A stretch of DNA of 64,000 bases, taken from contig OZ025256.1 in the NCBI GenBank assembly GCA_964019135.1, positions 42,814,035-42,878,034 on the forward strand, in the 5' to 3' direction. The DNA comes from Arenicola marina (taxonomy: Eukaryota > Annelida > Polychaeta > Arenicolidae). The translations under genes were made by a program, and so were the position numbers. Below, piece after piece: positions 25,847-59,317 of the stretch. Every line of letters begins with the position of its first letter. The stretch's first letter is position 1. The notes beneath the pieces were generated by a model. It was not told the origin of the DNA. It did no database searches and saw only the letters and a program-made list of their open reading frames with translations.

Positions 25847-26046
25847 NNNNNNNNNNNNNNNNNNNNNNNNNNNNNNNNNNNNNNNNNNNNNNNNNNNNNN
25901 NNNNNNNNNNNNNNNNNNNNNNNNNNNNNNNNNNNNNNNNNNNNNNNNNNNNNNNNNNNNNNNNNNNNNNNNNNNNNNNNNNNNNNNNNNNNNNNNNNNN
26001 NNNNNNNNNNNNNNNNNNNNNNNNNNNNNNNNNNNNNNNNNNNNNN
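25847..26046. other. Assembly gap of 200 N
   Basis: Exactly 200 unknown bases immediately downstream of the array that follows SDHA exon 7. The right flank is the 23-bp array itself, so the true length of array and gap is unknown. Confidence 1.
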
Positions 26047-26836
26047 GGACTGACCTGTGGGCTGACATGGGACTGACCTGTGGGGTGACATGGGACTGAC
26101 CTGAGGGGTGACATGGGACTGACCTATGAGCTGACATGGGACTGACCTGTGGGGTGACATGGGACTGACCTGTGGGTAGACATGGAACTGACCTGTGGGG
26201 TGACATGGGACTGACATGCGGGGTGACATGGGACTGACCTGTGGGGTGACATGGGACTGACCTGTGGGGTGACATGGGACTGACCTGTGGGGTGACATGG
26301 GACTGACCTGCGGCGTGACATAGGACTGACCTGTGGGGTGACATGGGACTACCCTGTGGGGTGACATGGACTAACCTGTAGGCTGACCTGTGGGGTGACA
26401 TGGGACTGACCTGTGGGGTGACATGGGACTGACCTGCGGGGTGACATGGGACTGACCTGCGGGGTGACATGGGCCTGACCTGTGGGGTGACATGGGACTG
26501 ACCTGTGGGGTGACATGGGACTGACCTGTGGGGTGACATGGGACTGACCTGTGGGGTGACATGGGACTGACCTGCGGCGTGACATAGGACTGACCTGTGG
26601 GGTGACATGGGACTAACCTGTGGGCTGACCTGTGGGGTGACATGGGACTGACCTGTGGGGTGACATGGGACTGACCTGTGGGGTGACATGGGACTGACCT
26701 GTGGGGTGACATGGGACTGACCTGTGGGGTGACATGGGACTGACCTGTGGGCTGACATGGGACTGACCTGTGGGGTGACATAGGACTGACTTGAGGGGTG
26801 ACATGGGACTGACCGGTGGGGTGACATGGGACTGAC
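26047..26836 (-). repeat. 23-bp array anchored on the donor of SDHA exon 7
   Basis: About 33 units contain CACCCCACAG followed by GTCAGTCCCATGT on the minus strand. The first ten bases repeat the last ten bases of SDHA exon 7 and the next thirteen repeat the first bases of intron 7. Every intact unit therefore carries a CAG/GTCAGT donor, and the CCCCACAG can also pass as an acceptor. Units near 26310 and 26575 share a CGGCGTGACATAGG variant, evidence of a roughly 265-bp higher-order duplication. Confidence 0.95.
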
Positions 26837-29800
26837 CTGTGGGGTGGAACTGGACGAACTCCATGTCCTCGTTGGCGAGCCCGGCGCGGGTGGTCATGGC
26901 CGTACCGTCCCCGGTGCACGTGTGGGCGGCAGTGCACGAGAAGTATGTCCGGCCGTACCCCCTGCAAGAGGCCAATGGCAGAGCAGCTTAGCGGCGAGCA
27001 CGTGGCGAACACGTGGCGAGCACGTGGTGCACAACACAAATCAACAAAAATAAGACCAGCAAGAACAGGCCTCAGGTGATTGACCTCATAACAATATACG
27101 GGTAAAGCAGGGACATTTTTGCCCCAAAACGGGATGCATGGAAACAATGTAGGTCATCCTGAGTGATGATCATTGCTCAATGTAGCATTATCACCAAACG
27201 ATTTCTCCACCTTTGCTACAGAATCCAGTCCATCACTTTTTTTTTTTCATTACAAAGTCATCCAAAAATTACCATTAGAAGTTATTTATAGAAGTACATG
27301 TAACTGTACATGAGTATTAATCTCTACTTATTGCTTTGTTTTACAAATATCGCGATTGGATTGCGAGGAGGGGGACATGTTAAGCGACTTACTGCAAGCG
27401 TGCGAATATTTTTTAGTAGTTAGGGGTTAGTAGTCACGACAAGCCACGTTAGAAGTGTGTGTGGGGGGAGGTGGGGGGGGGGGGGTGAGAACCACCCTGA
27501 TTTGACCACCCTGAGGTGACCACCCCGAGGCGACCACCCCGAGATGACCACCCCGAGATGACCACCCTGAGATAGCCACCCCGAGGTGACCACCCTGAGG
27601 TCACTTACCCCGAGGCCAGGACGGTGTTGGTGGAGCGGAACCTGTGGATGTTGCCGTCCTCCATGCTGATGGCGATGACCCCCTTGCACTGTCCCTGCTC
27701 CATGATCAGATCCACGGCGAAGTACTCGATGAAGTAATCTGTGTCGTACATCAGCGACTGCAACAGTCATCACATCAGGTCACATCAGGTCACATCGTGT
27801 GACATCAGGTCACAACAGGTCACATCAGGTCACAACAGGTCACATCAGGTCACAACAGGTCACATCAGGTCCCTTTTCTGCCTTTCTTTTTTTGTCTCGT
27901 TTATTTTGCCTAAGTCTTTGGCTGTATGTTTTTTTTCGTGTCTTTTTTCCCTGTTGTTTTCGGTGTATTTCTTTTATCCAGGTTTTTATTTGTCTTGTTT
28001 CCTCGTCCGTCTCTTCTGTGTCGTTCCCTTCTTCATTAGAGCGGGATATGTGTACGTGTTTTTTAAAAATAAATAGCATAATAGTGTACATAATATTGCT
28101 TGGGTGTCTATACATTGTTTCCGTAAAGATTATCAGCAGCTATCATGATATTGATGACTTTTGTAAACGCAAGATTTGCGTTTAAAATTGATCCAACAAA
28201 TAAAATTGTGAAAACCCTAAATCTATTTGGCTGCAAAAAATCTGGCCAAAGCGGTCGTCATAAACACAGATAGCAAGGGTTCACTTTGATTTAGACTTAA
28301 TTAACTGAGGTTTAACAACACATTCAGCATCGAACTATAACCCTGGGTATTGCATTATTAATAGAGACGCGGAAGGCCTTCACAACCCATGCAAGCTTCT
28401 TAAACATGTATGTTTAATATAAAGGCGGATAAAATAATAAAAATAAATAACAAGATATATATATAGATATATATAAATATATAGAGAAGAATGTTTAGTA
28501 TAACAGCGGATATAATAATAACAAAAATAAATAAATAAATAAATATATATAAATAAATATATATATATAAATAAATATATATATATATAAAATAAATAAA
28601 TACGAGAAATGGGGGGAGGGGGATTCAGAGTGCTGACTGACCCGTCCGTACAGCGTGTGCAGCATGGAGTGTCCGGTCCTGTCGGCCACGCAGCACGCCC
28701 TGTGGGCCTGGCCGCCCTGCCCGTAGTCCAGACTCTGACCGCCAAAGGCGCGCTGGTAGATCTTACCGTTCTCCAGCCGACTGAACGGCATCCCGTAGTT
28801 CTCCAGCTACAATGTGATAGGGGGGGGTGAGTCAGGGTCAAGTCTTCGCATTAATTGAACCATGAGCCACATATATTGACTCGGTAAAGTACAAGTAACG
28901 CGCAGATACATCTAGAAACTGACGAAGTACAAGTAGCGCGCAGATACCTCTAGCAACTGACGAAGTACAAGCAGCGCGCAGATACCTCTAGCAACTGACG
29001 AAGTACAAGATGCGCGCAGATACTTCTAGCAACTGACGTTTTAAGTGCATTTCTCATGCAGCAACCATCGCATTAGAATTGGCAAATACTCAGCTTGAAG
29101 CGAAATGAAATAAAAATTTAAAATTATTGCTTCAATGCATATCTCAATATTACTGACAAATGTGCCAACGCCTGAATAGGCCAAATTTAAGCCCAACGCT
29201 GGCATAATATACCCAGAAAGTAATTATATACAGATAACTTGAGATGGTTCAATTACAGACCCTATGGAAACAGGATAACGTGACTGAAAACATAACTTCA
29301 TCCACAAATATTTATTCAACAATCCAACAAGAAGGTTAACAAAAGGCAGTGAAATAAATGAAGTCACCGATATTTCTCGATACATTTTTGGTGACATAAA
29401 TTTACTGACATGCACTACACTGCACTGGAGGTCACTCACCTCTATGACAGCCTTGGGGGCCTCCTCACACATGTACTGGGTGGATGTCACTCACCTCTAT
29501 GACAGCCTTGGGGGCCTCCTCACACATGTACTGGATGGATGTCACTCACCTCTATGACAGCCTTGGGGGCCTCCTCACACATGTACTGGATGGATGTCAT
29601 TCACCTCTATGACAGCCTTGGGGGCCTCCTCACACATGTACTGGATGGATGTCACTCACCTCTATGACAGCCTTGGGGGCCTCCTCACACATGTACTGGA
29701 TGGATGTCACTCACCTCTATGACAGCCTTGGGGGCCTCCTCACACATGTACTGGGTGGATGTCACTCACCTCTATGACAGCCTTGGGGGCCTCCTCACAC

Positions 29801-32800
29801 ATGTACTGGATGGATGTCACTCACCTCTATGACAGCCTTGGGGGCCTCCTCACACATGTACTGGGTGGATGTCACTCACCTCTATGACAGCCTTGGGGGC
29901 CTCCTCACACATGTACTGGGTGGATGTCACTCACCTCTATGACAGCCTTGGGGGCCTCCTCACACATGTACTGGATGGATGTCACTCACCTCTATGACAG
30001 CCTTGGGGGCCTCCTCACACATGTACTGGGTGGATGTCACTCACCTCTATGACAGCCTTGGGGGCCTCCTCACACATGTACTGGATGGATGTCACTCACC
30101 TCTATGACAGCCTTGGGGGCCTCCTCACACATGTACTGGGTGGATGTCACTCACCTCTATGACAGCCTTGGGGGCCTCCTCACACATGTACTGGATGGAT
30201 GTCACTCACCTCTATGACAGCCTTGGGGGCCTCCTCACACATGTACTGGATGGATGTCACTCACCTCTGACAGCCTTGGGGGCCTCCTCACACATGTACT
30301 GGATGGATGTCACTCACCTCTATGACAGCCTTGGGGGCCTCCTCCCACATGTACTGGATGGATGTCACTCACCTCTATGACAGTCTTGGGGGCCTCCTCA
30401 CACATGCACTGGGTGGATGTCACTCACCTCTATGACAGCCTTGGGAGCCTCCTCCCACCTGTACTGGATGGATGTCACTCACCTCCATGACAGCCTTGGG
30501 GGCCTCCTCCCACATGTACTGGGTGGATGTCACTCACCTCTATGACAGCCTTGGGGGCCTCCTCACACATGTACTGGGTGGATGTCACTCACCTCTATGA
30601 CAGCCTTGGGGGCCTCCTCACACATGTACTGGATGGCGCTCTGGTCACCCAGCCAGTCAGATCCCTTCACGGTGTCGTAGAAGTGGTATTCCCAGCGGTC
30701 CTGCTCCACGTTGCCTAGCGCAGCGTTGATTCCGCCCTTCAAACAAGACAATTCACGCACTGAGCGATGGATGTAGGGGGGACGCTTTAACCTCTGTCAA
30801 GGTCATATCGCCACAATGGCAAGGGTCAAGGACGAGAGGAGCCAGATCTCAACAAAACGCTACTCTTTGCCAAGAAAGATATGGGATCCTGATCCTGCAC
30901 AAACATTTGCACAGGGGAGATTCGAACCTGTCACCGGCCGCTTCGCTGGCTTAGCAGAGCACACCTTACGACGGCCGAACACGCTATCTACAAGGCCGCG
31001 GAGCGGCCCCCTTGGAACAGGCAAACCTGATGGCATACAAATTACAGGTACCCTCCATGTTTACCACTCGAAAGTCCAATTGGTTCAGTCTCATGTGCTA
31101 GAGCGTTTCGCAATAAAATTAAAACATATATATTAGGGAACTAGATAGGGATGTTATAGTGGATACACTGTCGCGCCAGACTGACCAGTGTCTCTTACGT
31201 GGCTTTCTTACGTACTATGTCATCAAAATTTGGAAACATGTTTTAAATATTACACGGGAGATAATGATAAATAAAATATTGTATTGGAATGTGGACTTCT
31301 TTTTTTTTTACTCAAGAACTTTAACAGGCTAAACAGCATGAGCATCATATCATTTAACACGATGACAATTACCATGACAACGTATATACTAAGATCGCAC
31401 CCTGTGAAAAGGTGCCAGAATTCACTCCAATGACAAGTAACATAATTAATCCTGGTGTCTGTATGTAATGCGAACGGCAGTTTTCTTCTGCACTCAACAT
31501 GAAGAAAATATACAGTGCGTCACATAAGGTTTTTTCCGGAAAAACTAGCAATGCAGTACATACAAATCATACGTGGTTGAAAATATCTATCAAACTAAGC
31601 CATTTCTGCACACGAGTTAAACATTTTTCTATCAAGTATATTCGTCTAATTTGGTTTATGGCACCTGCTAAACTGAGAGCCCGCTTTTACATCTGGTGGC
31701 GTAAAGATATTGTAGTTATTAGCCCTATATCGTATCTTCCCTTATAGAGTGGTGAAGAAGGTCTGACGTTTATAATTATACGATTGCAATATGGGGAGTG
31801 ACTTACTAATTAATAAGGGGGGCAAGTCTCGGTAACTTCAAGTTATAAACACAGTTGCCGTCATGTGATTATGAGGTTGATAGGGCGTGCTTTGCTAGGT
31901 TACTTTAGTTATTTATGTCGTCACATACAAATGAGAAACCAGGTAACGAAACCTTAATGTTATGATTGGAGTGGCAACTACTGATTTTCTCGTGGGTTAC
32001 TATTATTATTATCGCTGGGGATATCGGGTATAAATCGAGGTGGGATTAGCAGTCTTGTTTAATTCTGGGAAAATACTAATCAGTAAGTACATCTGTCTTT
32101 GTGACATAGGCGTAATAAATAATAATAATGTTTATAATTACTTAATTATCGTAATAAAGCTGTGTAGTGACGCGGAAAATAGGACTAAGGGGGACGACAG
32201 GGGTTTCGGCTAACCCCAAACCCTTATTTGCATAGTCGTGTATCTCCGGATGTTCTACATTTCCCGCGTCACCACAGCTCTATGTTCAAGTGAAAGACTT
32301 TGTTTACTGCCGCACCCGATCAAACATCTCCGAGCCGCATCGACGATACATTATTGCAGCACCGCATGGTTTATAATCGCCAGTGCATCACATAAGGTGT
32401 GACCAGTCTCCATAGCAGACATATCTTGGGGGTTGGGCCCTGCTTACCTGGGCCGCCACGGTGTGAGACCGGGTCGGGAACAGCTTCGTGATACAGGCAG
32501 TCTTGAAGCCCTTGTTGGCCAGGCCGAAGGCGGCTCGGAGCCCCGCGCCGCCCGCACCGACCACCACGGCGTCATACTCGTGGTCCACTACCGGGTAGTC
32601 ACGGGACACCTGCAGGGGTATATTATTATATATTATGTTATTATACATATATATTATGTTATTATATTTATATTATGTTATTATATATATATATTATGTT
32701 ATTATAAATACATTATATAAGTATACATTAGATTTCATCCATATGAGAGACCGGGGTATAGATTTAAAACACTATCAATGACATTTTGCACCATATATTT

Positions 32801-35800
32801 ACGGCACAAGTTACATGTTTGTTTAACTTGCTCAGTTTTTGTTTGTTTCCTTTACTGCTTTTCCTTTCTTTTTGTGTACTACGAGTAGGAAATAAATAAT
32901 TAAAAAAATAAAAATATAACAGGGATAGTACAGGAAATGACCAAGTACCCATAGTTACCTGACTCTTGTTGCTGTGCTTGGCGTTGCTACCCATAGTTAC
33001 CTGACTCTTGTTGCTGTGCTTGGCGTTGCTACCCATAGTTACCTGACTCTTGTTGCTGTGCTTGGCATTGCTCCCCATAGTTACCTGACTCTTGTTGCTG
33101 TGCTTGGCATTGCTCCCCATAGTTACCGGACTCTTGTTGCTGTGCTTGGCATAGCTACCCATAGTTACCTGACTCTTGTTGCTGTGCTTGGTATTGCTCC
33201 TCATAGTTACCAGACTCTTGTTGCTGTGATTGGCATTGCTACCCATAGTTACCGGACTCTTGTCGCTGTGCTTGGCATTGCTCCTCATAGTTACCAGACT
33301 CTTGTTGCTGTGCTTGGCATTGCTCCCCATAGTTACCGGACTCTTGTTGCTGTGCTTGGCATAGCTACCCATAGTTACCTGACTCTTGTTGCTGTGCTTG
33401 GTATTGCTCCTCATAGTTACCACTCTTGTTGCTGTGATTGGCATTGCTACCCATAGTTACCGGACTCTTGTCGCTGTGCTTGGCATTGCTACTCATAGTT
33501 ACCTGACTCTTGTTGCTGTGCTTGGCATTGCTACCCATAGTTACCTGACTCTTGTTGCTGTGCTTGGTGTTGCTACCCATAGTTACCGGACTCTTGTTGC
33601 TGTGCTTGGCATTGCTACCCATAGTTACCTGACTCTTGTTGCTGTGCTTGGCATTGCTCCCCATAGTTACCAGACTCTTGTTGCTGTGATTGGCATTGCT
33701 ACCCATAGTTACATAATTCTTGTTGCTGTGCTTGGCATTGCTCCCCATAGTTACCAGACTCTTGTTGCTGTGATTGGCATTGCTACCCATAGTTACCTGA
33801 CTCTTGTCGCTGTGCTTGGCATTGCTACCCATAGTTACCTGACTCTTGTTGCTGTGCTTGGCATTGCTACCCATAGTTACCTGACTCTTGTTGTTGTGCT
33901 TGGCATTGCTACCCATAGTTACCTGACTCTTGTTGTTGTGCTTGGCGTTGCTATTCTTGCCGTGAACACGGAAGCTGAAGTCCCTTGTTGCCGCCAGAGG
34001 TCGTGCCAAGGCAGACACCTAAGAGGCAAAGAATAAGAGTTCAACAAGTATTAAACGGCAAACAACATACATAACACAAAATGTATCTATTTACATACAT
34101 TTTAATTAGTCCAATGAAGTACCCGTGAGTAGAATACATAAACAACATTGGGAAATAATTTGATCATCATGTCAACTGGATACCGAAATAAACTGTTTAG
34201 GTTTGATGCTGCCTTTAGACCAGTGATAAATGGATTTGTTTTGATGTTGCCTTTGTGCACACATGGTTTATCACTGGAATCATGACATTTCAAGAATAAT
34301 GGCAATACTGATCATCCTTTTATTTTGCAACAGTGTTTGAATAGTAAATAAAGGGATTGGGAAATTGTTACTGATGACAATGAACATAGTCAAAAGAACG
34401 ATGATGTTGAAATTGATCACAGTATAGTCAGCAAGATGACAGTAACATAGAAAAACTGCTTCAATATTGCCTAGAACAGGAATGAAATTAATTAGTTGGT
34501 GACACACCTAAGGCACCTTTACTTTATATCAGCTTTTGCTTCACCCACTTGACCTCACTCATATTGCCCAAAGAAATTGGAAAAAGTACCTATTTATGGA
34601 GATGAAAAGCTGGATACTAAAACTGCAGTAGTAAGCAGCAAAACTCACAAGCAAGAATAGTATGAAATGTTGGACAAGACCATCAAGGAAATGTCAAGTG
34701 CAACAGAAATAAGACAACCTCTTCAGATTAGTCAGTAATAGATTGATCTTTGGATCCTCTATCATGCTCAGCTTATGGAGAGTGTTTCACCTATCATTGA
34801 TCTTCTTATCCTCCGAGGGTCATTGGCCTAATTTCACCAAATTCATATGTAAAGATTGATTACAACAGTAATTCATATATATTGATCTCAGATGCCATAG
34901 TTATCAACAATATGATATCTAAAGGCCACCTTCTAAGTAAATTTTCTTCTCAGTTATGTATCAATGGTGATCATTACAGGTACATGCCACAAGATGTGCT
35001 TACTCCAACCTGTCAAGAATTTGCTCTTACACAGCCAGCCTCAACTGTGCAGTTATGTGAAAAAAGCTACAAAATATGAAAATCTCATGTTGCGAAAGAC
35101 TGAAAAGTGGCATTCCAAAAGGCACCACTTTTGGAAGTGTCCAGGACATTGAAGAATAAATATTGATCAAGAAGAATTTGAGACCATTTCAAAAATAATA
35201 TGCAAGCATGATTAGACCAAATAGATTTTAGATATTTTAGACAGACATTCTTGTAAATACTTCAATTTATATATATAGTGCTTCAGGTTCTGGTTTAATA
35301 TATTGATTTCATATATTATATACAGGTTTTGTGATTGCCTCCGACCATACTGACTCACATATATATATGATTCACATATATTAGGATTTATATCCTGCAA
35401 ATTTCATAATACTGGTACTCTGCTTATAAATTTCATGGAACCCTCAGACCAAGAAGAGCAGGCAACCCATAGGCAATGTATGTATATCGATCTATATGTG
35501 TACTCAGTACCTACAGACAAGGAAGTAGTTACGTTAGATATCAATTAATACCTTAAGCATAATGATTAATTTTACCTGGTTACAATAAATAAACCATAAT
35601 CACTGAGCATTAATTGATAGAGATATAAATAATATCACCCAGTGATCTTACGCTGAACAGTGAATGATGCCATCAAGCAGATTGGTTGCTTCTAAGTGCA
35701 GCAGAGCAACATTTGCTTATATTATAATTGCAAATATTTCAGGAAAGAGGGAGGTTTTAGTGCAGATGGGTTAGGGATGGAGACCAGAGGGTGTGAATAA

Positions 35801-36502
35801 CACATTTGCTAATTGCAGTCTAGACGGAAAGGTCATATCTCATATATAAAGCTTGCACATGTAACATATTAATAGAAAATACTGTATACTATAATGCAGA
35901 GTTTGTATCTGTATGCATTATGTGCTTATACTGGTAATGGTGCCTAAATAAATAAATAATCATTAAGAACGTGTTTGCATAGATCTAGCAGCACCAGATG
36001 GTAAAAGGCATTACAGTTTCAAGATATTCGAGATTCCTTCTCCGTAATAGATATATATACCTTATTGAATAATAGATAATATTTTGTAATTCATAATGTA
36101 ACACTACCAATATGATATCCCTCAGCCCAGCCCTCTGTGGACCCCTCCAAGGATAGAATACGTAAACGTATAGAATACGTAAACACTATAATTGTTCGAG
36201 CACACATTATAATAAAAGCTACAGTCGATTCCTTACTAACGTCGAAAGATTTTAACATTGTTACCGTTGTACCCCTAGAGAAGCTGGCTTGCCTGGAGGC
36301 ACTTGCGCCAACTCATACCCCTAGTCCACCTATCCTAATCTTATGCATTGGGATTAGAGTCACTGGATCACTGAAATTACATATTTATATCTTTATGACA
36401 TGATTGGAGGCGGCAATTCTTATATTTATAACTTAAACTTACCACATTGGTAGTATGCGGCTTCCTAAGAAGGTTGCTGGAGAGTTTTAATAATGACGCC
36501 AT
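26837..36502 (-). CDS. SDHA: Succinate dehydrogenase flavoprotein subunit (mitochondrial), exons 1-7, 3' half missing
   Basis: SDHA oxidises succinate to fumarate in the citric acid cycle and passes electrons to the respiratory chain as part of complex II. Minus-strand exons are 36443-36502, 33923-34018, 32448-32609, 30593-30736, 28642-28806, 27609-27757 and 26837-26961. All have GT/AG ends and compatible phases. Exon 1 gives a targeting-type N-terminus ([16 protein letters not shown]). Exon 3 holds the FAD-binding [10 protein letters not shown] and the flavin-linked histidine in TRSHTVAAQ, residue 101 by this model. Later exons give [49 protein letters not shown] and FVQFHPTG. About 300 of an expected 660 residues are present. 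The rest of the catalytic core and C-terminus should follow, but I find no such exon down to base 1. Four of the seven donors adjoin tandem arrays. Confidence 0.95.
26962..27484 (-). other. SDHA intron 6, unique part
   Basis: It contains three close ACACGTGGCGA/GCACGTGGCGA-type copies just upstream of the exon 7 acceptor (26997-27027) and otherwise ordinary AT-rich DNA. No other feature is seen. Confidence 0.6.
27485..27608 (-). repeat. 15-16-bp array anchored on the donor of SDHA exon 6
   Basis: About eight units of the type CTCGGGGTGGTCACC are read on the minus strand directly after the donor. The exon ends CCTCGGG and the intron starts GTAAGTGACCTCAGGGTGGT, so the unit resembles the junction itself. 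Units alternate CTCGGGG and CTCAGGG versions. Confidence 0.85.
27765..27868 (-). repeat. 10-bp array upstream of the acceptor of SDHA exon 6
   Basis: Ten or so units of GTGACCTGAT or GTGACCTGTT on the minus strand end only about ten bases before the acceptor GACTGTTGCAG. Together with the donor-side array, exon 6 is enclosed by minisatellites on both sides. Confidence 0.88.
27869..28641 (-). other. SDHA intron 5 remainder
   Basis: AT-rich sequence with an (ATAA)n/(TA)n simple-repeat tract near 28450-28605. No exon or transposon was recognised. Confidence 0.6.
28882..29035. repeat. 38-bp array, four units, in SDHA intron 4
   Basis: Units contain GACGAAGTACAAGTAGCGCG, then CAGATACCTCTAGCAACT. 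It starts about 75 bases upstream of the exon 5 acceptor on the coding strand and does not include exon sequence. Confidence 0.88.
29430..30592 (-). repeat. 55-bp array carrying the end of SDHA exon 4 and its donor
   Basis: About 21 units run on the minus strand as TACATGTGTGAGGAGGCCCC, CAAGGCTGTCATAGAG, then GTGAGTGACATCCA. The first 36-38 bases of each unit copy the exon 4 end (encoding [12 protein letters not shown]) and the rest copies the intron start. Every unit keeps the strong donor GAG/GTGAGT. Because 55 is not a multiple of 3, use of a distal donor would shift the frame. The ORF-like reading of the plus strand ([12 protein letters not shown]) is a by-product. Confidence 0.96.
30764..30990 (-). 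mobile_element. tRNA-derived SINE (family 1), copy E, in SDHA intron 3
   Basis: On the minus strand the copy has a box B-like GACAGGTTCGAATCTCCCC and the body block GATCAGGATCCCATATCTTT, and it ends near GTTAAAGCGTCCCCCC. It inserted about 30 bases upstream of the exon 4 acceptor, in the same orientation as the gene. Confidence 0.75.
30991..32157. other. SDHA intron 3, unique part
   Basis: AT-rich DNA. An 82-codon frame at 31499-31747 on the plus strand has no recognisable relatives and no splice context. Confidence 0.55.
32158..32279. mobile_element. Small MITE, 122 bp, imperfect inverted repeats
   Basis: The left end AGCTGTGTAGTGACGCGGAA and the right end TTCCCGCGTCACCACAGCT are inverted copies with a few differences. 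The element lies in SDHA intron 3, has no coding capacity, and its target duplication is not clear. Confidence 0.65.
32610..32951. other. AT-rich simple repeat and unique part of SDHA intron 2
   Basis: The stretch at 32625-32720 is a run of TATTATGTTATTATATATAT-type units. The remaining 200 bases are AT-rich and unremarkable. Confidence 0.65.
32952..33922 (-). repeat. 42-bp array carrying the end of SDHA exon 2 and its donor
   Basis: About 23 units on the minus strand consist of AGCAATGCCAAGCACAACAA, CAAGAGTCAG and GTAACTATGGGT. The first 30 bases copy the exon 2 end and the last 12 copy the intron start. Each unit is exactly 14 codons ([14 protein letters not shown]) in the SDHA frame, so the reading frame runs on through most of the array. 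Most units keep the CAG/GTAACT donor; some have CCG, CTG or ATT before the junction, which would weaken it. Single-residue variants (AKHS, ANHS, TKHS) show older divergence. Confidence 0.96.
34019..36442 (-). other. SDHA intron 1
   Basis: 2.4 kb of AT-rich DNA. It holds one arm-like copy (36137-36320) of the foldback element found at 54788-55478. Open frames at 34882-35079 and 34964-35152 resemble no family I recognise. Confidence 0.65.
36137..36320. mobile_element. Single arm of the AAGTGCCTCCAGG foldback family
   Basis: It contains TAGAATACGTAAACACTATA, then ATAATAAAAGCTACAGTCGA, and ends GGCTTGCCTGGAGGCACTTG. The same blocks form both arms of the inverted repeat at 54788-55478. A second arm is not present here, so this is a solo or truncated copy within SDHA intron 1. 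Confidence 0.75.
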
Positions 36503-39497: not shown

Positions 39498-39830
39498 CAG
39501 GGACCCCCCCCCCCCCCCCCGCGCCATATTTGTATAATAGTGCCGAACGCCCCGATGTCGTGGTAGTTCCAGCAGTGGGCAGCCCCCCCCCCCCCCCCTT
39601 TTGAGGAGGAATGCCGTTTTTCAACGCAAAATTTAGGCCATCTGAGACGTGGACCCCCCCTCCCCCTCCCTTTTTGAGGCAGAACGCTGTCTGAGGCGGC
39701 GTGGACCCCCCCCCCCCCGCCCCCGTCCCCGGTCGTCCAAAAATTGGTAGATTGCCCAGTCGCAATTTAGTTCAGAGCAAGTTTGGATTCCTCACCCCTT
39801 TTACAATTCCAGGATCCGCCCCTGCAGACT
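39498..39830 (-). mobile_element. C-tract MITE-like element (inverted copy)
   Basis: Read on the minus strand it starts GCAGGGGCGGATCCTGGAAT, continues with AAAAGGGGTGAGGAATCC and then G-run blocks carrying GGCCTAAATTTTGCGTTGAA. The plus-strand copy at 59664-59905 has the same order. The left part (39498-39590) also matches the G-tract elements at 5945 and 56070, so at least two related elements are fused or nested here. Confidence 0.6.
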
Positions 39831-40265
39831 CAGAGTCAATGAACTTTAACGGTCGCACTAACTTCCTCGAAAGAGTGACGCCACGTCTGCGCCAGTTTGC
39901 GATAAATATGATAGCAACAAATCGAATTCCCGAATGTCTATACAACGGGTCAATATTCCATGTATGAACCCACGAAATGCATTATTGTTGTAAACATTAG
40001 GCGTGAGTAATACGAGAGCTATGCTGAAACAATGGTTCGCCCTTACATGGAAGAACGACCGTACCACGTCGTGTATTACAATTACGTCCAGTAACCCTGA
40101 CGACTAAGTCAATTTCATATTATTATGTTCTACAGTAGCCATGGCATCAGTGTGGATTGTTTTTTATGACTGTCATGTAATCTTATTCTAAAAATTAATG
40201 CCACATTATAGCCTATATCATTCGTCCTATAATAATCACGAAAGAGTCCATTTGATGTTATAACC
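39831..40265. other. Unassigned unique sequence
   Basis: About 430 bases between the MITE-like element and the 6.5-kb satellite. No exon or repeat was recognised. Confidence 0.5.
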
Positions 40266-43200
40266 GTCCAGCTACTATGGTGACATCGCTTTGGAGCTGC
40301 CGCGACACTGTCAAGTGGCAGCTTGATGCCATCCATTTGCAATGGCGACACCGTCCAGTTGCCATGACGATAGCATCAAGTTGCCACGGTGACATCGCCC
40401 AGTGGATGTCGTGTCATCGTCCAGTTGCCATGGCGACATCGTTAAGTGGATGTCGTGTCATCGTCCAGTTGCCATGGCGACATCGTTGAGCGGATGTCGT
40501 GTCATCGTCCAGTTGCTATGGTGACTTCGCCCAGTAGATGTCTTGATGCCATCCATTTGCAATGGCGACACCGTCCAGTTGCCATGGCGATATCATCAAG
40601 TTGCCACGGTGACATCGTCCAGATGCCATGGCGACATCGTCAGATCGCCATGGCAACATCGTCCAGTGGGTGTCGTGTCATCGTCCAGTTGCCATGGTGA
40701 CATCGCCCAGTGGATGTCGTGTCATCGTCCAGTTGCCATGGCGACATCGTTGAGTGGATGTCGTGTCATCGTCCAGTTGCCATGGCGACATCGTTGAGCG
40801 GATGTCGTGTCATCGTCCAGTTGCTATGGTGACTTCGCCCAGTAGATGTCTTGATGCCATCCATTTGCAATGGCGACACCGTCCAGTTGCCATGGCGATA
40901 TCATCAAGTTGCCACGGTGACATCGTCCAGATGCCATGGCGACATCGTCAGATCGCCATGGCAACATCGTCCAGTGGGTGTCGTGTCATCGTCCAGTTGC
41001 CATGGTGACATCGTCCAGTGGATGTCGTGTCATCGTCCAGTTGCCATGGCGACATCGTTGAGTGGATGTCGTGTCATCGTCCAGTTGCCATGGCGACATC
41101 GTTGAGCGGATGTCGTGTCATCGTCCAGTTGCTATGGTGACTTCGCCCAGTAGATGTCTTGATGCCATCCATTTGCAATGGCGACACCGTCCAGTTGCCA
41201 TGGCGATATCATCAAGTTGCCACGGTGACATCGTCCAGATGCCATGGCGACATCGTCAGATCGCCATGGCAACATCGTCCAGTGGGTGTCGTGTCATCGT
41301 CCAGTTGCCATGGTGACATCGTCCAGTGGATGTCGTGTCATCGTCCAGGCGCAATGGCGACATCATCCAGTTGCTATGGTGACATCGTCCAGTGGATGTC
41401 GTGTCATCGTCCAGTTGCCATGGTGACTTCTTTGAGTGGATGTCGTGTCTTCGTCCAGTTGCCACGGCGACATCATCCAGTTGCAATGGCGATATCGTTG
41501 AGTGGATGTCGTGTCATCGTTCAGTTGACATGTAGACATCGTCCTGCTGCCATGGTGACATCGTCCTGCTGCCATGGTGACATCGTCCTGTTGTCATGCT
41601 GACATCGTCCAGTTAACATGGTGACATCGTTCAGTTGCCATGGTGACATCGTCCAGTGGATGTCGTGTAATTGTCCAGTAGATATCGTGTCATCGTCCAA
41701 TGGATGTCGTGTCATCGTCTAGTGGCCATGGCGACATCGTTGAGTGGATGTCGTGTCATCGTCCAGTTGCCATGGCGACATCATTGAGCGGATGTCGCGT
41801 CATCGTCCAGTTGCTATGGTGACTTCGCCCAGTAGATGTCTTGATGCCATCCATTTGCAATGGCGACATCGTCCGGTGGATGTCGTGTCATCGTCCAGTG
41901 GATGTCGTATCATTGTCCAGTTGCCATGGCGACATCGTCCAGTTGCCATGGCGACATCGTCCGGTTGCCATGGCGACTTCACCCAGTGAATGTCGTGTCA
42001 CCGTCCAGTTGCCATGGTGACTTCACCTAGTGAATGTCATATCATCGTCCAGTTGCCATGGCGACATCATTGAGCGGATGTCGCGTCATCGTCCAGTTGC
42101 TATGGTGACTTCGCCCAGTAGATGTCTTGATGCCATCCATTTGCAATGGCGACATCGTCCGGTGGATGTCGTGTCATCGTCCAGTGGATGTCGTATCATT
42201 GTCCAGTTGCCATGGCGACATCGTCCGGTTGCCATGGCGACTTCACCCAGTGAATGTCGTGTCACCGTCCAGTTGCCATGGTGACTTCACCTAGTGAATG
42301 TCATATCATCGTCCAGCTGCCATGGCGACATCGACCAGTTGCAATGGTGACATCGTCCAGTTGCAATGGTGACATCGTCCAGTTGCCATGGCGACATCAT
42401 TGAGCAGATGTCGCGTCATCGTCCAGTTGCTATGGTGACTTCGCCCAGTAGATGTCTTGATGCCATCCATTTGCAATGGCGACATCGTCCGGTGGATGTC
42501 GTGTCATCGTCCAGTGGATGTCGTATCATTGTCCAGTTGCCATGGCGACATCGTCCAGTTGCCATGGCGACATCGTCCGGTTGCCATGGCGACTTCACCC
42601 AGTGAATGTCGTGTCACCGTCCAGTTGCCATGGTGACTTCACCTAGTGAATGTCATATCATCGTCCAGCTGCCATGGCGACATCGACCAGTTGCAATGGT
42701 GACATCGTCCAGTTGCAATGGTGACATCGTCCAGTTGCCATGGCGACATCGTCCAGTGAATGCCGTGTCATCGTCCAGTGTCCATGGCGATATCATCAAG
42801 TTGCCACGGTGACATCGTCCAGTGGATGTCGTATTATCGTCCAGATGCCATGGCGACATCGTCTTATTTCCATGGCAACATCGTCCAGTGGGTGTCGTGT
42901 CATCGTCCAGTTGCCATGGTGACATCGTCCAGTGGATGTCGTGTCATCGTCCAGTTGCCATGGCGACATCGTTGAGTGAATGTCGTGTCATCGTCCAGTT
43001 GCCATGGCGACATCGTCCGGTTGCCATGGCGACTTCGCCCAGTGAATGTCGTGTCACCGTCCAGTTGCCATGGTGACTTCAACTAGTGAATGTCATATCA
43101 TCGTCCAGTTGCCATGGCGACATCGCTGAATGGATGTCGTATCATCGTCCAGCTGCCATAGCGACATCGACCAGTTGCAATGGTGACATCGTCCAGTTGC

Positions 43201-46200
43201 CATGGCGACATCGTCCAGTGAATGCCGTGTCATCGTCCAGTTTCCATGGCGATATCATCAAGTTGCCACGGTGACATCGTCCAGTGGATGTCGTATTATC
43301 GTCCAGATGCCATGGCGACATCGTCTTATTTCCATGGCAACATCGTCCAGTGGGTTTCGTGTCATCGTCCAGTTGCCATGGTGACATCGTCCAGTGGATG
43401 TCGTGTCATCGTTCAGTTGACATGGCGACATCGTCCTGTTGCCATGGTGACATCGTCCAATGGATGTCGTGTCATCGTCCAGTTGCCATGGCGACATCGT
43501 CCAGTGGATGTCTTGACACCGTCCAGTTGTCATGGCGACATCGCCCAGTGGGTGTCCTGTCATCGCCGTGTTGCTATAGAAACATGGTCTAATAGATGTC
43601 TCTTACACCATCCAGTTGCAATGGCGACATTCTCGAGTTGCCATGGCGACCTCGTCCAGTGGATTTCGTGTCATCGTCCAGTTGCCATGGCGACATCGTT
43701 GAGTGGATGTCGTGTCATCGTCCAGTTGCCATGGCGACATCATTGAGCGGATGTCGCGTCATCGTCCAGTTGCTATGGTGACTTGGCCCAGTAGATGTCT
43801 TGATGCCATCCATTTGCAATGGCGACACCGTCCGGTGGATGTCGTGTCATCGTCCAGTGGATGTCGTATCATTGTCCAGTTGCCATGGCGACATCGTCCA
43901 GTTGCCATGGCGACATCGTCCGGTTGCCATGGCGACTTCGCCCAGTGAATGTCGTGTCACCGTCCAGTTGCCATGGTGACTTCACCTAGTGAATGTCATA
44001 TCATCGTCCAGTTGCCATGGCGACATCGCTGAATGGATGTCGTATCATCGTCCAGCTGCCATGGCGACATCGAGCAGTTGCAATGATGACATCGTCCAGT
44101 TGCCATGGCGACATCGTCCAGTGAATGCCGTGTCATCGTCCAGTTTCCATGGCGATATCATCAAGTTGCCACGGTGACATCGTCCAATGGATGTCGTATT
44201 ATCGTCCAGATGCCATGGCGACATCGTCTTATTTCCATGGCAACATCGTCCAGTGGGTGTCGTGTCATCGTCCAGTTACCATGGTGACATCGTCCAGTGG
44301 ATGTCGTGTCATCGTCCAGGCGCAATGGCGACATCATCCAGTTGCTATGGTGACATCGTCCTGTGGATGTCGCGACATCGTTGAGTGGATGTCACGACAT
44401 CGTCCAGTGGATGTCGTGTCATCGTTCAGTTGCCATGGCGACATTGTCGAGTAGCCATGGCGACATCGTCCAGATGCCATGGCGACATTATCCAGTTGCA
44501 ATGGCGATATCGTTGAGTGGATGTCGTGTCATCGTCCAGTTGCCATGGCGACATCATTGAGCGGATGTCGCGTCATCGTCCAGTTGCTATGGTGACTTCG
44601 CCCAGTAGATGTCTTGATGCCATCCATTTGCAATGGCGACATCGTCCGGTGGATGTCGTGTCATCGTCCAGTGGATGTCGTATCATTGTCCAGTTGCCAT
44701 GGCGACATCGTCCAGTTGCCATGGCGATATCGTCCGGTTGCCATGGCGACTTCGCCCAGTGAATATCGTGTCACCGTCCAGTTGCCATGGTGACTTCACC
44801 TAGTGAATGTCATATCATCGTCCAGTTGCCATGGCGACATCGCTGAATGGATGTCGTATCATCGTCCAGCTGCCATGGCGACATCGACCAGTTGCAATGG
44901 TGACATCGTCCAGTTGCCATGGCGACATCGTCCAGTGAATGCCGTGTCATCGTCCAGTTTCCATGGCGATATCATCAAGTTGCCACGGTGACATCGTCCA
45001 GTGGATGTCGTATTATCGCCCAGATGCCATGGCGACATCGTCTTATTTCCATGGCAACATCGTCCAGTGGATGTCGTGTCATCGTTCAGTTGACATGGCG
45101 ATATCGTCCTGTTGCCATGGTGACATCGTCCAATGGATGTCGTGTCATCGTCCAGTTGCCATGGCGACATCGTCCAGTGGATGTCTTGACACCGTCCAGT
45201 TGCTATGGCGACATCGTCCAGTTGCCATGGCGACATCGCCCAGTGGATGTCCTGTCATCGTCGTGTTGCTATAGAAACATGGTCTAATAGATGTCTCTTA
45301 CACCATCCAGTTGCAATGGCGACATTCTCGAGTTGCCATGGCGACCTCGTCCAGTGGATTTCGTGTCATCGTCCAGTTGCCATGGCGACATCGCCCGGTG
45401 GATATCGTGTCATCGTCCTGTTGCCATAGAAACATGGTCCAATAGATGTTTCTTACACCGTCCAGTTGCAATGGCGATATCGTCGAGTTGCCATGGCGAC
45501 TTCGTCCAGTGGATTTCGTGTCATCGTCTTGTTGCCATAGAAACATTGTCTAATAGATGTCTCTTACACCGTCCAGTTGCAATAGCGACATCGTCCAGTT
45601 GCCATGGCTACATCGTCCCGTTGCCATGGTGACATCGTCCAATGGATGTCGTGTCATCGTCCAGTTGCCATGGCGACATCGTCCAGTGGATGTCTTGACA
45701 CCGTCCAGTTGCTATGGCGACATCGTCCAGTTGCCATGGCGACATCGTCCAGTTGCCATGGCGACATCGCCCAGTGGATGTCCTGTCATCGTCGTGTTGC
45801 TATAGAAATATCGTCTAATAGATGTCTCTTACACCATCCAGTTGCGGTCCTGGGGTCGAATCCGGGCTCGGGCATCTAATCTGGGGCATGTTTCATTCCT
45901 TCATCCTTCATCGTCTCGGGAGGTTCCTTGGCCCAATTTAGCCTGTATGTGCACAAAAGTGGCCTAAAACACCAACATTCCATTCCATTCCATCCAGTTG
46001 CAATGGCGACATCGTCGAGTTGCCATGGCGACCTCGTCCAGTGGATTTCGTGTCATCGTCCAGTTGCCATGGCGACATCGTCCGGTTGCCATGGCGACAT
46101 CGCTCAGTGGATATCGTGTCATCGTCTTGTTGCCATAGAAACATGGTCTAATAGATGTCTCTTACACCGTCCAGTTGCAATGGCGATATCGTCGAGTTGC

Positions 46201-46740
46201 CATGGCGACTTCGTCCAGTGGATTTCGTGTCGTCTTGTTGCCATAGAAACATTGTCTAATAGATGTCTCTTACACCGTCCAGTTGCAATGGCGATATCGT
46301 CGAGTTGCCATGGCGACTTCATCCAGTGGATTTCGTGTCATCGTCGAGTTGCCATGGCGACATCGTTCAGTGAATATTTTGACACCGTCTGGTTGCCATG
46401 GCTACTTGGTCACACGGATGTCTGGTCACCATCCAGTTGACATTGAAACATTAGCCAGCGGTTACTTTGGCAAAGTGGCATTGTCAGGACACATACCAAG
46501 CAAATAAAGACATCATCCAGTGGATGTCCAGTTGCCATGGAAATCATGTCCAGTGCAGGTCTTGATACCGTCCAGTTGCCATGGCGACATGGTTCAGTAG
46601 ATCTAATCCATGGCGGCATAGTCCAGTGGATCTCTTAAATAAAAACGCTGTTGTTACCATAGATGCAATTACCATGAACACACATTGTCCAGTGGATGAC
46701 GTGGCAGCGTCGAGCTGCAACGGTGATATCATTTCATAGA
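40266..46740. repeat. 6.5-kb satellite of 20-24-bp units with X-box-like dyad core
   Basis: Around 280-300 units follow two alternating types, CGTCCAGTTGCCATGGCGACAT and CGTCCAGTGGATGTCGTGTCAT. The first contains the near-palindrome GTTGCCATGGCGAC. Higher-order structure is plain: a 308-bp block starting near 40446 repeats at 40754 and 41062 with few differences, and other blocks recur near 41744, 42030 and 42366 and again near 43703 and 44517. Open frames in all phases are by-products. A SINE at 45844-45992 interrupts the array. It lies between RPL19's 3' end and SDHA's 5' end. Confidence 0.96.
45844..45992 (+). mobile_element. SINE family 2, copy inserted in the satellite
   Basis: The insert starts GGTCCTGGGGTCGAATCCGG (box B-like), runs through TCTAATCTGGGGCATGTTTC and TTGGCCCAATTTAGCCTGTA, and ends in three ATTCC repeats. 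The flanking satellite reads CATCCAGTTGC before it and CATCCAGTTGC after it, which could be a target duplication or just two satellite units. It fixes the SINE as younger than the surrounding array. Confidence 0.8.
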
Positions 46741-48540
46741 ACATAATGTCGGCGATATTGAGTGCAGGTTAATTGTTTATCAATAATTCGTTTCGAATCG
46801 GACATTTTCTGGTTCATGTTTCAGTCAATGAAACGATAATACACGGAAGGTCAGTTACGGTTGATACGAAGACACGCACGTGACGTCCTGTCAAATACAA
46901 ATGGTTAGTCGACATCGACCTCCCGGCAGAGGGCGGTCCCTCTGCCCCACGTCAAATTTAACCATCAAAATTATCCTTCATACGCGAAATTTAAAAATCG
47001 TTTTTGAGTTGGTTCACGTTAGAGGGCGCTCGCTGGACGAGTGAGTTGCGCGAGCGCTCTCTGCCGAGATTGGGACGCAAACTATTGCGAACAAGAAATG
47101 CAATCTCGATCCCAGAGTTCCTTGCGCGAGGGCGCTAAGTAGATTGCCCAACAAGCTACTCTGTACGGAGATTGCAAGAAGTGGGGTTATAGCGAGCGCA
47201 AGCGAGCTCTTAAGGTAACATGCATGCAAATTCAAAGTCCATTTCAAGCATAGGCTTAGGACTTTCATTTCAGGTAACAGCCCCCATGAGACTTTTTCGG
47301 ATTCGGAGTAAATATCAGGTCGAAGCCTATTATGTCAAGTGTTTAATAATTAAATCAGCTGCCCCACAAAATTTACGAATAAATGATTCAATGTTAACAC
47401 TGGATGTAGATCTAGGCTTCAAATTAAAGTTAATTTATAAGCGACGCGCTAAATGTCTGTTGCCAAGCAGGGCGCTCTTGGTGACCGCCCAACGGCTGCT
47501 GTCATAGTGAGTAGTTGTGACGTCAAAATGTAATAAACATGACTTCACAATATGAGTTCCTAAGCAACCGAATTGAGATTAATTGTGAATATTATCTAGG
47601 TGTATCCCCTCGGAATATCTGAATTAATAAATATACGCTCGCATTTTTTAGGTGGCACCTATCCTTATTAATATTAAAATCTGGACTTCGATTGTTCTCT
47701 CAAGTAGGTCGTAAGTGTCGAGGAAATATTTATCCTTTTTTTTCCCTTATCAATATTTTACCCATCAGCTTTTGCTGCTTTTAAAATTATGGTTAATGTA
47801 CTGCAGTACCGTAATCCATCTCGGCTATAACATGGGAAGATAACAATTTGAAAGATATTGACTTGTACAATGACAAATGTACAATAAAGTTCCCTTGGCT
47901 TGCACCCTTGATCACGTGTCACAGATAGAATTTTCGTAAGGGTGCTTTCAATCTAAAATCCTCACAAAAAAACACCTTACATTCCTTATCATGGCCTATA
48001 CAGGGTAGTGTATATTATTGTAATTGTGAAACGAAATTGCCAGGTTACGATTAACATACGAAGTAACGGACAGCTTTGCGAGACTTCAATTGTGCAGATT
48101 TTATATTTTGGGACATGTGGACTACACAGAACCAACACAATGCCAACAACAATGGAGTGCTATGTTCCGTCCGTAATCCTAAATACATTCATGTTTAAGT
48201 TAACATTGTTATTCCCTAATGTTTGCCGTTTTGCTTCTGACGACATTGTTATTCCCTAATGTTTGCCGTTTTGCTTCTGACGACCATTTGAAATAGACCG
48301 ATTGAGGCTGTCAATCATGTAATTACGTCACTTGCTTTTTTTCCATCATGTGACAAAAAACGCCTCTCCACGTGCGTTAATCGGACAAAGCAGCGTGTCA
48401 CTTTATTGTCAGTTTCAGATAAGAGTACTTGCACCTGCCAGCAGCTATGATTGTCAATTTCATACTCACGGTAAAGGAAAAAGGAATCATGGGCGGAGCT
48501 TAGCTCGGAGTGTGGAACGGTGCATTACAAGACACAACGA
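46741..48540. other. Intergenic region between satellite and RPL19 3' end
   Basis: No exon was recognised. A 95-codon frame at 47220-47507 on the plus strand has no family resemblance that I can see. A perfect 41-bp tandem duplication lies at 48203-48285. Confidence 0.5.
48203..48285. repeat. Perfect 41-bp tandem duplication
   Basis: The block beginning ACATTGTTATTCCCTAATGT and ending TTGCTTCTGACG occurs twice in a row without a difference. It is very recent or an assembly duplicate. Confidence 0.85.
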
Positions 48541-48564
48541 CAGGCCAGATTCGTTCTCATTTTT

Positions 48565-48570
48565 TTTATT
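48565..48570 (-). terminator. RPL19 polyadenylation signal AATAAA
   Basis: On the minus strand AATAAA lies about 70 bases after the RPL19 stop codon, within GAAAATAAAAAAAATGAG. Cleavage is expected 10-30 bases further on, near 48540-48555. Confidence 0.8.
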
Positions 48571-48642
48571 TTCTGTGTCCATGCGGAATGGGTTGTTACA
48601 CCGTGTGAGAGACAGTCCGTGCGTTCAGCGGTGGCGGGGTCT

Positions 48643-51600
48643 CTACTTCTTGGCCGCCTCGTCCTCCTTGGCGAACGTCTTGAGCAGCTCGGCCTTCTTG
48701 AGGGCGATACGCTCCTCGCGGCGCCGACGGGCCTCCTTGACCTTGCTCCTGCGGGCATCAGCCTGGTCACTGTGGGCAGAGAGGGGGTCAGTGTGAGGGG
48801 GGTCAGTGTGAGGGGGGTCAGTGTGAGGGGGGTCAGTGTGAGGGGGTCAACATTGTGAAACAACAGTCAGCCAGGTCACTGTGGGCAGAGAGGGGGTCAG
48901 TGTGAAGGGGGTCAACATAGTGATACAGCATTCAGGCAGGAGGGGGTCAGTGTGAGAGGGGTCAACATAGTAATACAACAGTCAGCCTGGTCACTGTGGG
49001 CAGAGAAGTGTTGAGCGATTCAAAAGGGTTGGCACAGACAAACAAAACACAAAGACTTTAAACTGTAAATCAGTATTCTGTTATTGATTTGTTTGTATCT
49101 TGCATGGTTTTCCTCCCCTATTATGGACACATAGTGACTAAAGGAAGGTCATGGAATATGCAAGACCCAGCCCTCGCCAGACCACAGGGGACTGGGGACA
49201 CGGTTCATCTCCAACATTGTGACGAGGGTAAATAGCCTCCAGTCTGCCCCCTAGAGGGCAGCACTTCAGCTCCACAGAGCCACACAGACAGAGCCGGACT
49301 GGAGCCAGGCGAACCCAGCCAATCCAGATGTCTTATGTCGGTGTAAAACAATCAGATCTCCATACCACGTGCGCAATTAAGGTGTTTAAAAAACAAAAAC
49401 ACAGACACCAGCATAGCTTAATTGCGGACAGTAACTTGCATGAACTAATAATCTATATAAAGTAACTATTCATACAAATATAACCACCCCTACATCTCGC
49501 AGGTTTATTTCAGTTGGGTCGCTAGACAGTAATGCAGTATTTCTTGGCTGAAGAAAGCATGAAAGTTGATTTATTTGAAAAGAAGAGTTAGCATCCTAAA
49601 GTAAGCAGGATAATGACCAAGAATATGTGTTTATGTAAAGGAAATTGACTACAAGGTATACTTTACTATTCTGTTGTTGAACTGTATGTACCTTGCATGG
49701 TTTTCCTCCCCTATTATGGACACATAGTGACTAAAGGAAGGTCATGGAATATGCAAGACCCAGTCCTCGCCAGACCACAGGGGACTGGGGACACGGTTCA
49801 TCTCCAACATTGTGACGAGGGTAAGTAGCCTCAAGTCTGCCCCCTAGAGGGCAGCACTTCAGCTCCACAGAGCCACACAGACAGAGCCGGACTGGAGCCA
49901 GGCGAACCCAGCCAATCCAGATGCCTTATGTCGGTGTAAAACAATCAGATCTTCATACCAAATGTGCAAATTCAGCGGCTCAATTTTTTATACACAATAA
50001 AAAGACATTAAAGTTCAACTTGAAACCCTAAATAAGAACCGAAAACCAGCAAGAAAAGCAACTGCTCGTGTTTTACACCACTTTTGCAAACATAAAGAGG
50101 GAATAGACTACAAAACATCAAGGAACAATAGACATGATTGCACGAAGCATGCCTCAAATCCAGGACCTGTCGACATGCAGGCAAACTGGCTTATCAACAG
50201 GGTTAGGAAGGCTCAATACCAGATCAATATAAAGTTACTTAACTACATTTCTAGCCAATTAACTTGTTAAAAGAGTTTGTGAATTGCAACGAAAGTAGGC
50301 TTCCCAAAGGAACCAGCAGAAAATGAAACGAACTTGTGTATGTTAAGGATATGAGTTACAAGGCATAATTTATTATTTTGTGGTTGATTTGTACCTTGCA
50401 TGGTTTTCCTCCCCTATTATGGACACATAGTGACTAAAGGAAGGTCATGGAATATGCAAGACCCAGTCCTCACCAGACCACAGGGGACTGGGGACACGGT
50501 TCATCTCCAACATTGTGACGAGGGTAAATAGCCTCAAGTCTGCCCCCTAGAGGGCAGCACTTCAGCTCCACAGAGCCACACAGACAGAGCCAGACTGGAG
50601 CCAGGCGAACCCAGCCAATCCAGATACCTTATGTTGGTGTAAAACAATCATATCTTCATACCAAACTTGTGACTTAAATGGACTTTTTAAAAAAAAACGA
50701 CACCAAAGTTTAATTCCAAACAGAAACCAGAATGAATTACCCTAATAATCCACATAAAGGTACTCATTCATACAGAATATGAACTCCGCTATATCTATTA
50801 AATTTCTTATTTCACTTGGTCACTGGACAGTAATAGAGTAATTGGTGGTCTAAGAAGTTGTGAAAGTTTACAGGTCATTCGAAGGAGGAGGAGTAAGACC
50901 CATAAAGTGGACAGGACAATAAAAAAGAAATTAGTGTATGTCAAGAAAATGATTGAATGCAGGAATCTTAAACTGTATCTTGCATGGTTTTCCTCCCCTA
51001 TTATGGACACAGAGTGACTAAAGGAAGGTCATGGAATATGCAAGACCCAGTCCTCGCCAGACCACAGGGGACTGGGGACACGGTTCATCTCCAACATTGT
51101 GACGAGGGTAAATAGCCTCAAGTCTGCCCCCTAGAGGGCAGCACTTCAGCTCCACAGAGCCACACAGACAGAGCCAGACTGGAGCCAGGCGAACCCAGCC
51201 AATCCAGATACCTTATGTTGGTGTAAAACAATCATATCTTCATACCAAACTTGTGACTTAAATGGACTTTTTAAAAAAAAACGACACCAAAGTTTAATTC
51301 CAAACAGAAACCAGAATGAATTACCCTAATAATCCACATAAAGGTACTCATTCATACAGAATATGAACTCCGCTATATCTATTAAATTTCTTATTTCACT
51401 TGGTCACTGGACAGTAATAGAGTAATTGGTGGTCTAAGAAGTTGTGAAAGTTTACAGGTCATTCGAAGGAGGAGGAGTAAGACCCATAAAGTGGACAGGA
51501 CAATAAAAAAGAAATTAGTGTATGTCAAGAAAATGATTGAATGCAGGAATCTTAAACTGTATCTTGCATGGTTTTCCTCCCCTATTATGGACACAGAGTG

Positions 51601-58670: not shown

Positions 58671-59220
58671 GATTATTACCGTCTAAGAAAGTAGTTCTTA
58701 ATAAATAAAGAAAGTTAACTTATTTATAAACTATAAGAACACCACAGAGACTTCAGTTAGCGCAACAGTTATATTATAAACGGTGGAGTTGATTTTATCA
58801 GTGAATGAGTTCGTAAATATGTTTGTTTTCAATGATGTGCAATAACATGTCATGAGCATGAAAAGTAGTTCGTCAATTGCTCCTAGAGGGGTCTGTCTCA
58901 TTGATCAGTTGATACCCAAGCGGTGCTGCCATCTAGCGAATACCGTGGCTCCTCGACGTCTTCGGGAGTTTCCGGGTTTCTTCGGTAGTGGCACCCAGCA
59001 ACGTTACCTTCCCTTTTCGTCAAGGTCACGAACGTCAGTCAGCAGCTCCAGTGTGCGGGTCCAGATAACACCTGTGGACGAAGTCGGAAATCCTTGGCCC
59101 CGAAAGTTCATCATCCTAAAAGGGGGTATGGAGGAGTCATTGGCTGAAACACCCTCGGAGCTGCCAGGGCCGGAGATCAGGAGAGGGAACGTGAAATCAG
59201 GGCCAGACAGGAGAACCAGT
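58671..59220. promoter_or_regulatory. Divergent spacer between RPL19 and PFK
   Basis: About 575 bases separate the inferred RPL19 start from the PFK start codon, and the two genes run away from each other. The PFK leader must lie in the right half. The PFK frame is open upstream to an ATG at 58852, but the translated extension resembles no known PFK N-terminus. Confidence 0.6.
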
Positions 59221-59317
59221 ATGGCGGCAGTTCTCGGAAAAGAAGGGAAATTTGTTGCAAAGGGTTGCCATGTCGGGAAGGCTATCGCTATATTCACCAG
59301 CGGAGGAGATGCGCAAG
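59221..59317 (+). CDS. PFK: ATP-dependent 6-phosphofructokinase, exon 1
   Basis: PFK phosphorylates fructose 6-phosphate to fructose 1,6-bisphosphate, the committed step of glycolysis, in the cytosol. The exon encodes MAAVLGKEGKFVAKGCHVGK and AIAIFTSGGDAQG and ends in phase 1 at GTATGT. GKAIAIFTSGGDAQG matches the ATP-binding start of animal PFKs (GKAI.V.TSGGDAQGMNAAVR), and an intron after GDAQ-G is where animal genes have one. The start at 59221 is preferred over the in-frame ATG at 58852 because it has a good context (A at -3, G at +4) and gives the usual short N-terminus starting MAAV. The next exon (MNAAVRAV...) was not found before the window ends. Confidence 0.9.

Follow-up and report, generated by a model that had tools for sequence, protein, structure and literature searches.

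Tandem repeat arrays across exon–intron borders of SDHA and RPL19 in Arenicola marina and their likeness to the amphioxus mirages

The 64,000-nt stretch of Arenicola marina DNA analysed here (the window) carries exons 1–7 of SDHA and exons 2–5 of RPL19, together with tandem repeat arrays that in several places lie at or across splice junctions (Table 1). Joined at exon-proximal donors, the seven SDHA exons give 300 codons plus one base in a single open frame, and the 300-residue translation matches mitochondrial SDHA structures, with PDB 4ytp_A as the best match (E 4.4e-144). Residues 53–300 align without a gap in the two structure alignments shown, a span that takes in the exon 4–5 and 6–7 borders, and at exons 4 and 6 the protein alignment is compatible with use of the exon-proximal donor. 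It is not decisive at exon 2, whose end aligns poorly: the best structure match has a two-residue gap immediately before the junction, and the second match a one-residue gap further upstream of this border. A tblastn search of the window with a human query did not find SDHA exons 8 onward, and its best match (E 0.031) lies on the opposite strand and contains a stop. Given a run of Ns beside the exon 7 array and the failure to find the later exons, the SDHA locus is either incomplete here or misjoined.

Table 1. Genes, arrays and assembly gap in the window (positions count from its first letter)
Feature	Position	Strand	Remarks
SDHA exons 1–7	26837..36502	(-)	homology and splice signals
SDHA exon 1	36443-36502	(-)	
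SDHA exon 2	33923-34018	(-)	
SDHA exon 3	32448-32609	(-)	
SDHA exon 4	30593-30736	(-)	
SDHA exon 5	28642-28806	(-)	
SDHA exon 6	27609-27757	(-)	
SDHA exon 7	26837-26961	(-)	
Array across SDHA exon 2 donor	32946-33953	(-)	42 bp x 24.0, 31 exon bases
Array across SDHA exon 4 donor	29426-30636	(-)	55 bp x 22.0, 44 exon bases
Array across SDHA exon 6 donor	27491-27615	(-)	14 bp x 8.9, 7 exon bases
Array across SDHA exon 7 donor	26047-26846	(-)	23 bp x 34.8, 10 exon bases
Array near SDHA exon 6 acceptor	27770-27871	(-)	10 bp x 10.2, 12 bp upstream, 0 exon bases
AT-rich array	32621-32728	(-)	11 bp upstream of SDHA exon 3 acceptor
38-bp array, SDHA intron 4	28887-29038	(-)	80 bp from exon 5 acceptor, off junction
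AT-rich array	28523-28602	(-)	39 bp past SDHA exon 5 donor, off junction
Assembly gap (Ns)	25847-26046		adjoins SDHA exon 7 array
RPL19 exons 2–5	48649..53986	(-)	stop codon immediately past exon 5
RPL19 exon 2	about 53880-53986	(-)	
RPL19 exon 3	about 53225-53468	(-)	
RPL19 exon 4	about 52834-52944	(-)	
RPL19 exon 5	about 48649-48769	(-)	
Array across RPL19 exon 5 acceptor	48758-49006	(-)	~109-bp units, inner 15-bp repeat

Tandem Repeats Finder (TRF) and wraparound alignments established the arrays, including every one that a preliminary description of this DNA had placed at a splice junction: at the donors of SDHA exons 2, 4, 6 and 7, on the acceptor side of exon 6 and at the RPL19 exon 5 acceptor. 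Repeats cross the exon–intron boundary in five of them. The intrusion into the exon is smaller than one unit in each SDHA donor array (31 of 42, 44 of 55, 7 of 14 and 10 of 23 nt at exons 2, 4, 6 and 7), and 12 exon bases are included in RPL19. Exon sequence had been reported for the arrays of SDHA exons 2, 4 and 7 and RPL19 exon 5, all of which do contain it; the exon 6 donor, whose 7-nt overlap is the weakest case, brings the count from four to five. The SDHA donor arrays fill their introns with copies that bring a donor, and the unit at exon 2 has a length divisible by three.

The internal structure of the exon 2 array bears on how it grew. A block of five units recurs, as seen by eye, which is a sign of block-wise, multi-unit duplication. 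The exonic copy differs by one base from its neighbour and by up to seven from other copies, and no clear gradient of homogenisation was seen along this array, where mean differences show no steady rise with the distance between copies. The array edges fit short direct repeats, a feature that in a tandem array is indistinguishable from a partial unit. That the arrays are expansion errors of the assembly is very improbable. Near-identical repeats are prone to misassembly, the window holds 400 Ns, the exon 7 array runs into a gap where its far end is lost, and the later SDHA exons were not found; against this, the copies show ordered private variants as well as block duplications, and comparable lancelet PGBD5 repeats are described as confirmed by new sequencing data in the relevant part of PMC3902484.

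In RPL19 the array lies across an acceptor. Its three acceptor copies have AG ends at 48994, 48879 and 48770, of which the last is the real site, and both upstream decoys carry the 12 exon bases (with one mismatch in one decoy) and preserve CACAG (2/2). Separately, the intron between exons 4 and 5 contains six copies of the snoRNA SNORA73 (U17/E1) in the region 49091-52318 (-), all above the Rfam gathering score; this region includes two overlapping 845-bp blocks that lie 584 bp apart and are 99% identical. A literature search on the snoRNA found nothing.

Arrays are common in the window with or without known splice sites. The census of 26 arrays with a TRF score of at least 100 places 14 in 1-25,846, eight in SDHA, two in 40332-46402, one (48203-48284) past the RPL19 stop codon and one at RPL19 exon 5. 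The AT-rich array upstream of SDHA exon 3 is of low complexity and may be unrelated. Between SDHA and RPL19, the ~6 kb of 40332-46402 consist mostly of a 22/44-bp minisatellite off any known splice site. At 4529-4680 (+) a 37-bp array has a consensus unit in which TTCTCACAG/AG resembles an acceptor and CAG/GTAATC a donor (slashes mark the putative splice points), and is possibly a mirage, the published name for tandem copies of an exon–intron boundary, in a gene not found there. An interspersed repeat occurs at 1876-2057, 8322-8504 and 10701-10881 with 81–87% identity and in both orientations, and is possibly a short transposable element.

Open reading frames were filtered by length (at least 50 or 45 aa), by complexity and by an overlap with arrays under 30%. 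In 1-25.8 kb, a scan of low sensitivity covered 150 of 155 filtered ORFs and matched none of them to a Pfam family at E 0.01 or better. Between 52.3 and 64 kb, 88 of 110 filtered ORFs (the 22 in the RPL19 stretch were left out) yielded one weak match, MHC_II_beta (E 0.0049), which we take as chance. A short phosphofructokinase-like stretch is seen at 59278-59322 (+), with 13/15 residues, inside the ORF 58846-59322. We regard the scan as insensitive because this ORF yielded no family and the input left out the known exons as a positive control, so that 1-25.8 kb may still hold genes.

The placement of the arrays was assessed by reducing each to one unit and dropping the units at random, with a cut-off of TRF score 100 and a hand-merged list of 26 arrays that were both fixed after the arrays had been seen. 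Within SDHA, four of eight arrays span a junction against 0.41 expected, a count reached in 29 of 100,000 draws, and six of the eight lie within 15 bp of one against 0.86 expected (1 of 100,000 draws). A separate run of 200,000 draws gave P values of 0.00037 for spanning and 0.00002 for lying within 15 bp, and barring founders from lying wholly inside an exon gave 0.0004 and 0.000015 (200,000 draws). Removing the two AT-rich arrays gives 4/6 spanning (5 of 100,000 draws), adding two weaker arrays gives 4/10 (57 of 100,000), and without the exon 6 donor the P value for three or more spanning arrays is 0.006. Across the whole window, with the arrays in 1-25,846 scored as off-junction, 5 of 26 arrays span a junction against 0.42–0.43 expected, which was seen in 0 of 40,000 draws (exact 4.9e-5). 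The RPL19 exon 2 donor was placed one base off in this test, and the counts are unaffected because its neighbourhood is free of arrays.

Since the hypothesis was drawn from the same data, these P values describe the local pattern only. Could the clustering be a chance product of a minisatellite-rich genome, noticed after the fact? Such an account can point to the 26 arrays in 64 kb, to one gene picked for its pattern, to RPL19 by itself, which is not significant (1/1 spanning; 12,620 of 100,000 draws), and to the weaker value without the exon 6 donor, but it sits poorly with the whole-window excess and we consider it unlikely. Clustering of arrays at junctions, as put forward in the preliminary description, is supported within the window in both random-draw and exact tests; the placement looks non-random there, as a strong local pattern and not as a genome-wide law.

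What produced this pattern is a separate matter. Among seven array units, no word longer than 7 nt is shared, so that the arrays had separate origins, as had been proposed from the differences among them, and no single unit lies behind them all. One reading is that the arrays are seeded by a process of duplication that prefers exon–intron borders, for example through co-transcriptional R-loops or through U1- or spliceosome-linked breaks and template switching. In its favour, SDHA has roughly ten times as many junction-spanning arrays as expected, yet many arrays in the window lie away from known exons. R-loop seeding would call for a G-rich non-template strand, and the sense-strand G skew of six units is +0.10, +0.13, +0.20, +0.20, -0.43 and -0.80 (the RPL19 value being that of the inner 15-bp unit); with two of six negative, the sign is inconsistent and R-loop seeding is not supported as a general cause. 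A cause acting through U1 alone does not reach the spanned RPL19 acceptor. Border-preferring seeding is a tentative idea that we hold to be somewhat unlikely.

The copies within the donor arrays raise the question of which donor is used. Many decoys of SDHA exons 2, 4 and 7 equal the real site in a simple consensus count, and those of exon 6 are weaker; with equal counts, if the first copy is the one chosen, whatever selects it must be more than donor strength. At exons 4 and 6, read-through from the real donor hits a stop ahead of every decoy. At exon 7, eight decoys precede the stop and two of them are in frame, and at exon 2, 13 precede it and 11 are in frame, with decoys counted as exact matches in both cases. 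Read-through at exon 2 meets no stop for 555 nt, and use of the decoys there would give a 14-residue peptide repeat. With 11 decoys in frame and a poor alignment at the end of exon 2, some use of decoys at this exon is conceivable on the evidence of the reading frame.

Decoy sites could also be useful in themselves, if extra donors aid exon recognition and junction arrays are kept by selection. Of 85 complete SDHA donor decoys, 83 retain the GT and 2 have it broken, against 7.85 expected, and low breakage of this kind would fit selection on decoys; the donor window at exon 7 likewise has the lowest load of variation among 23 windows. As many as 6.6% of draws are equally low for broken GTs, so that selection on decoy donors is not significant by this test, and the exon 2 donor 9-mer is more variable than the rest of its unit (0.063 against 0.038 per cell). 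The donor windows of the SDHA arrays rank 32 of 42, 16 of 55, 1 of 23 and 5 of 14 in variation. Selection for spare splice sites is quite improbable, and we rank it below chance microhomology or a bias of mutation close to transcribed borders.

A further reading derives the arrays from intron birth, as remnants of tandemly duplicated exon segments bearing AG/GT. The donor units do carry a GT behind exon-end bases, and a model of this kind is in print for the amphioxus globins, in the part of PMC3087553 that treats them. The preliminary description had added that a border-duplicating process could make new introns or exons; at SDHA exon 2 this fails for the intron, the intron there being already at the human position, c.150+1. 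The variant c.150+1G>A appears in a table of PMC10804026. In the alignments, the last codon of exon 2 corresponds to residue 50 of the second matched chain, 8gs8_A. This chain we take to be human. The sizes of exons 3–7 (162, 144, 165, 149 and 125) equal those of the matching human exons, and only c.150+1 is confirmed as a human border within the window's SDHA, the other introns being judged by exon size. Another candidate border, c.622-2A, belongs to XPC. With the exon 2 intron at the human position, the array there did not create it; this comparison places the array in an old intron and argues against intron birth at exon 2. As an account of the arrays, intron birth is hardly credible.

Taken together, these observations are very probably best explained by mirages, that is, by border stretches that were tandemly duplicated, amplified and tolerated through exon-proximal splicing. 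A short stretch of an exon–intron border would first have been duplicated in tandem, and replication slippage, unequal exchange or gene conversion would then have amplified it. We infer that the spliceosome picks the exon-proximal copy in vivo and that the decoy copies are nearly neutral. A wider generalisation, in which exon–intron borders are genome-wide hotspots of tandem duplication in this lineage, tied to transcription or splicing, is rather doubtful. Were it true, exon-end coding sequence could turn over in step with the intronic decoys, because the exonic copy belongs to the array, and the 42-bp in-frame array at exon 2 could even lengthen the protein by 14-residue repeats by way of its 11 in-frame decoys. 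If junction enrichment were genome-wide, the lineage would offer a natural system of introns growing from their own splice sites, in which dozens of equal serial donors would allow direct tests of how donors are chosen and of how introns grow and are gained.

Several known systems invite comparison. Ordinary intronic minisatellites share tandem growth and block duplications with the arrays described here, but in the present case the unit takes in an exon end and the placement in SDHA goes beyond random insertion. Introner elements are likewise repeated DNA linked to splice sites, and they consist of dispersed units that insert, whereas the arrays here are local and mutually unrelated. Tandem duplication of AG/GT proto-splice sites has been proposed as a route to intron gain (Rogers 1989; Gao and Lynch 2009; through PMC3087553). 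It likewise involves a duplicated exon segment with a splice signal, but here an existing intron is enlarged, with no new intron position at exon 2.

The closest match is with the mirages of amphioxus, described in the globins and Adh3 as tandem copies of either exon–intron boundary, with units from 10–72 bp (Adh3) to 150–160 bp (BflGb6); in the parts of that report bearing on them, haplotypes differ, RT-PCR is said to suggest regular splicing, intron gain through mirages is modelled and further loci are cited (PMC3087553). A later report, in the corresponding passages, adds PGBD5 as a mirage and mentions TnC (PMC3902484). The preliminary description had known of no named system of this kind, which these passages contradict, and its proposal of new introns stands in them too. 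Like the arrays of the window, the mirages of Adh3, BflGb6, BflGb9, TnC and PGBD5 are described there as copies that span a donor or acceptor and hold exon bases and splice signals, with units of 10–160 bp and a unit of its own for each gene (PMC3087553, PMC3902484); splice signals are present in many of the published copies, not all. In the features compared here the window arrays fit this kind, as judged from their sequences. Among the papers listed by our literature searches none was on SDHA or RPL19 mirages, though the searches did not combine these gene names with the term. The present case differs from the published passages in its genes, in four donors of one gene being affected and in copy numbers of up to ~35, and the local placement statistic is absent from those passages on mirages. 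As it stands, a known oddity gains two genes, SDHA and RPL19, and a local placement statistic.
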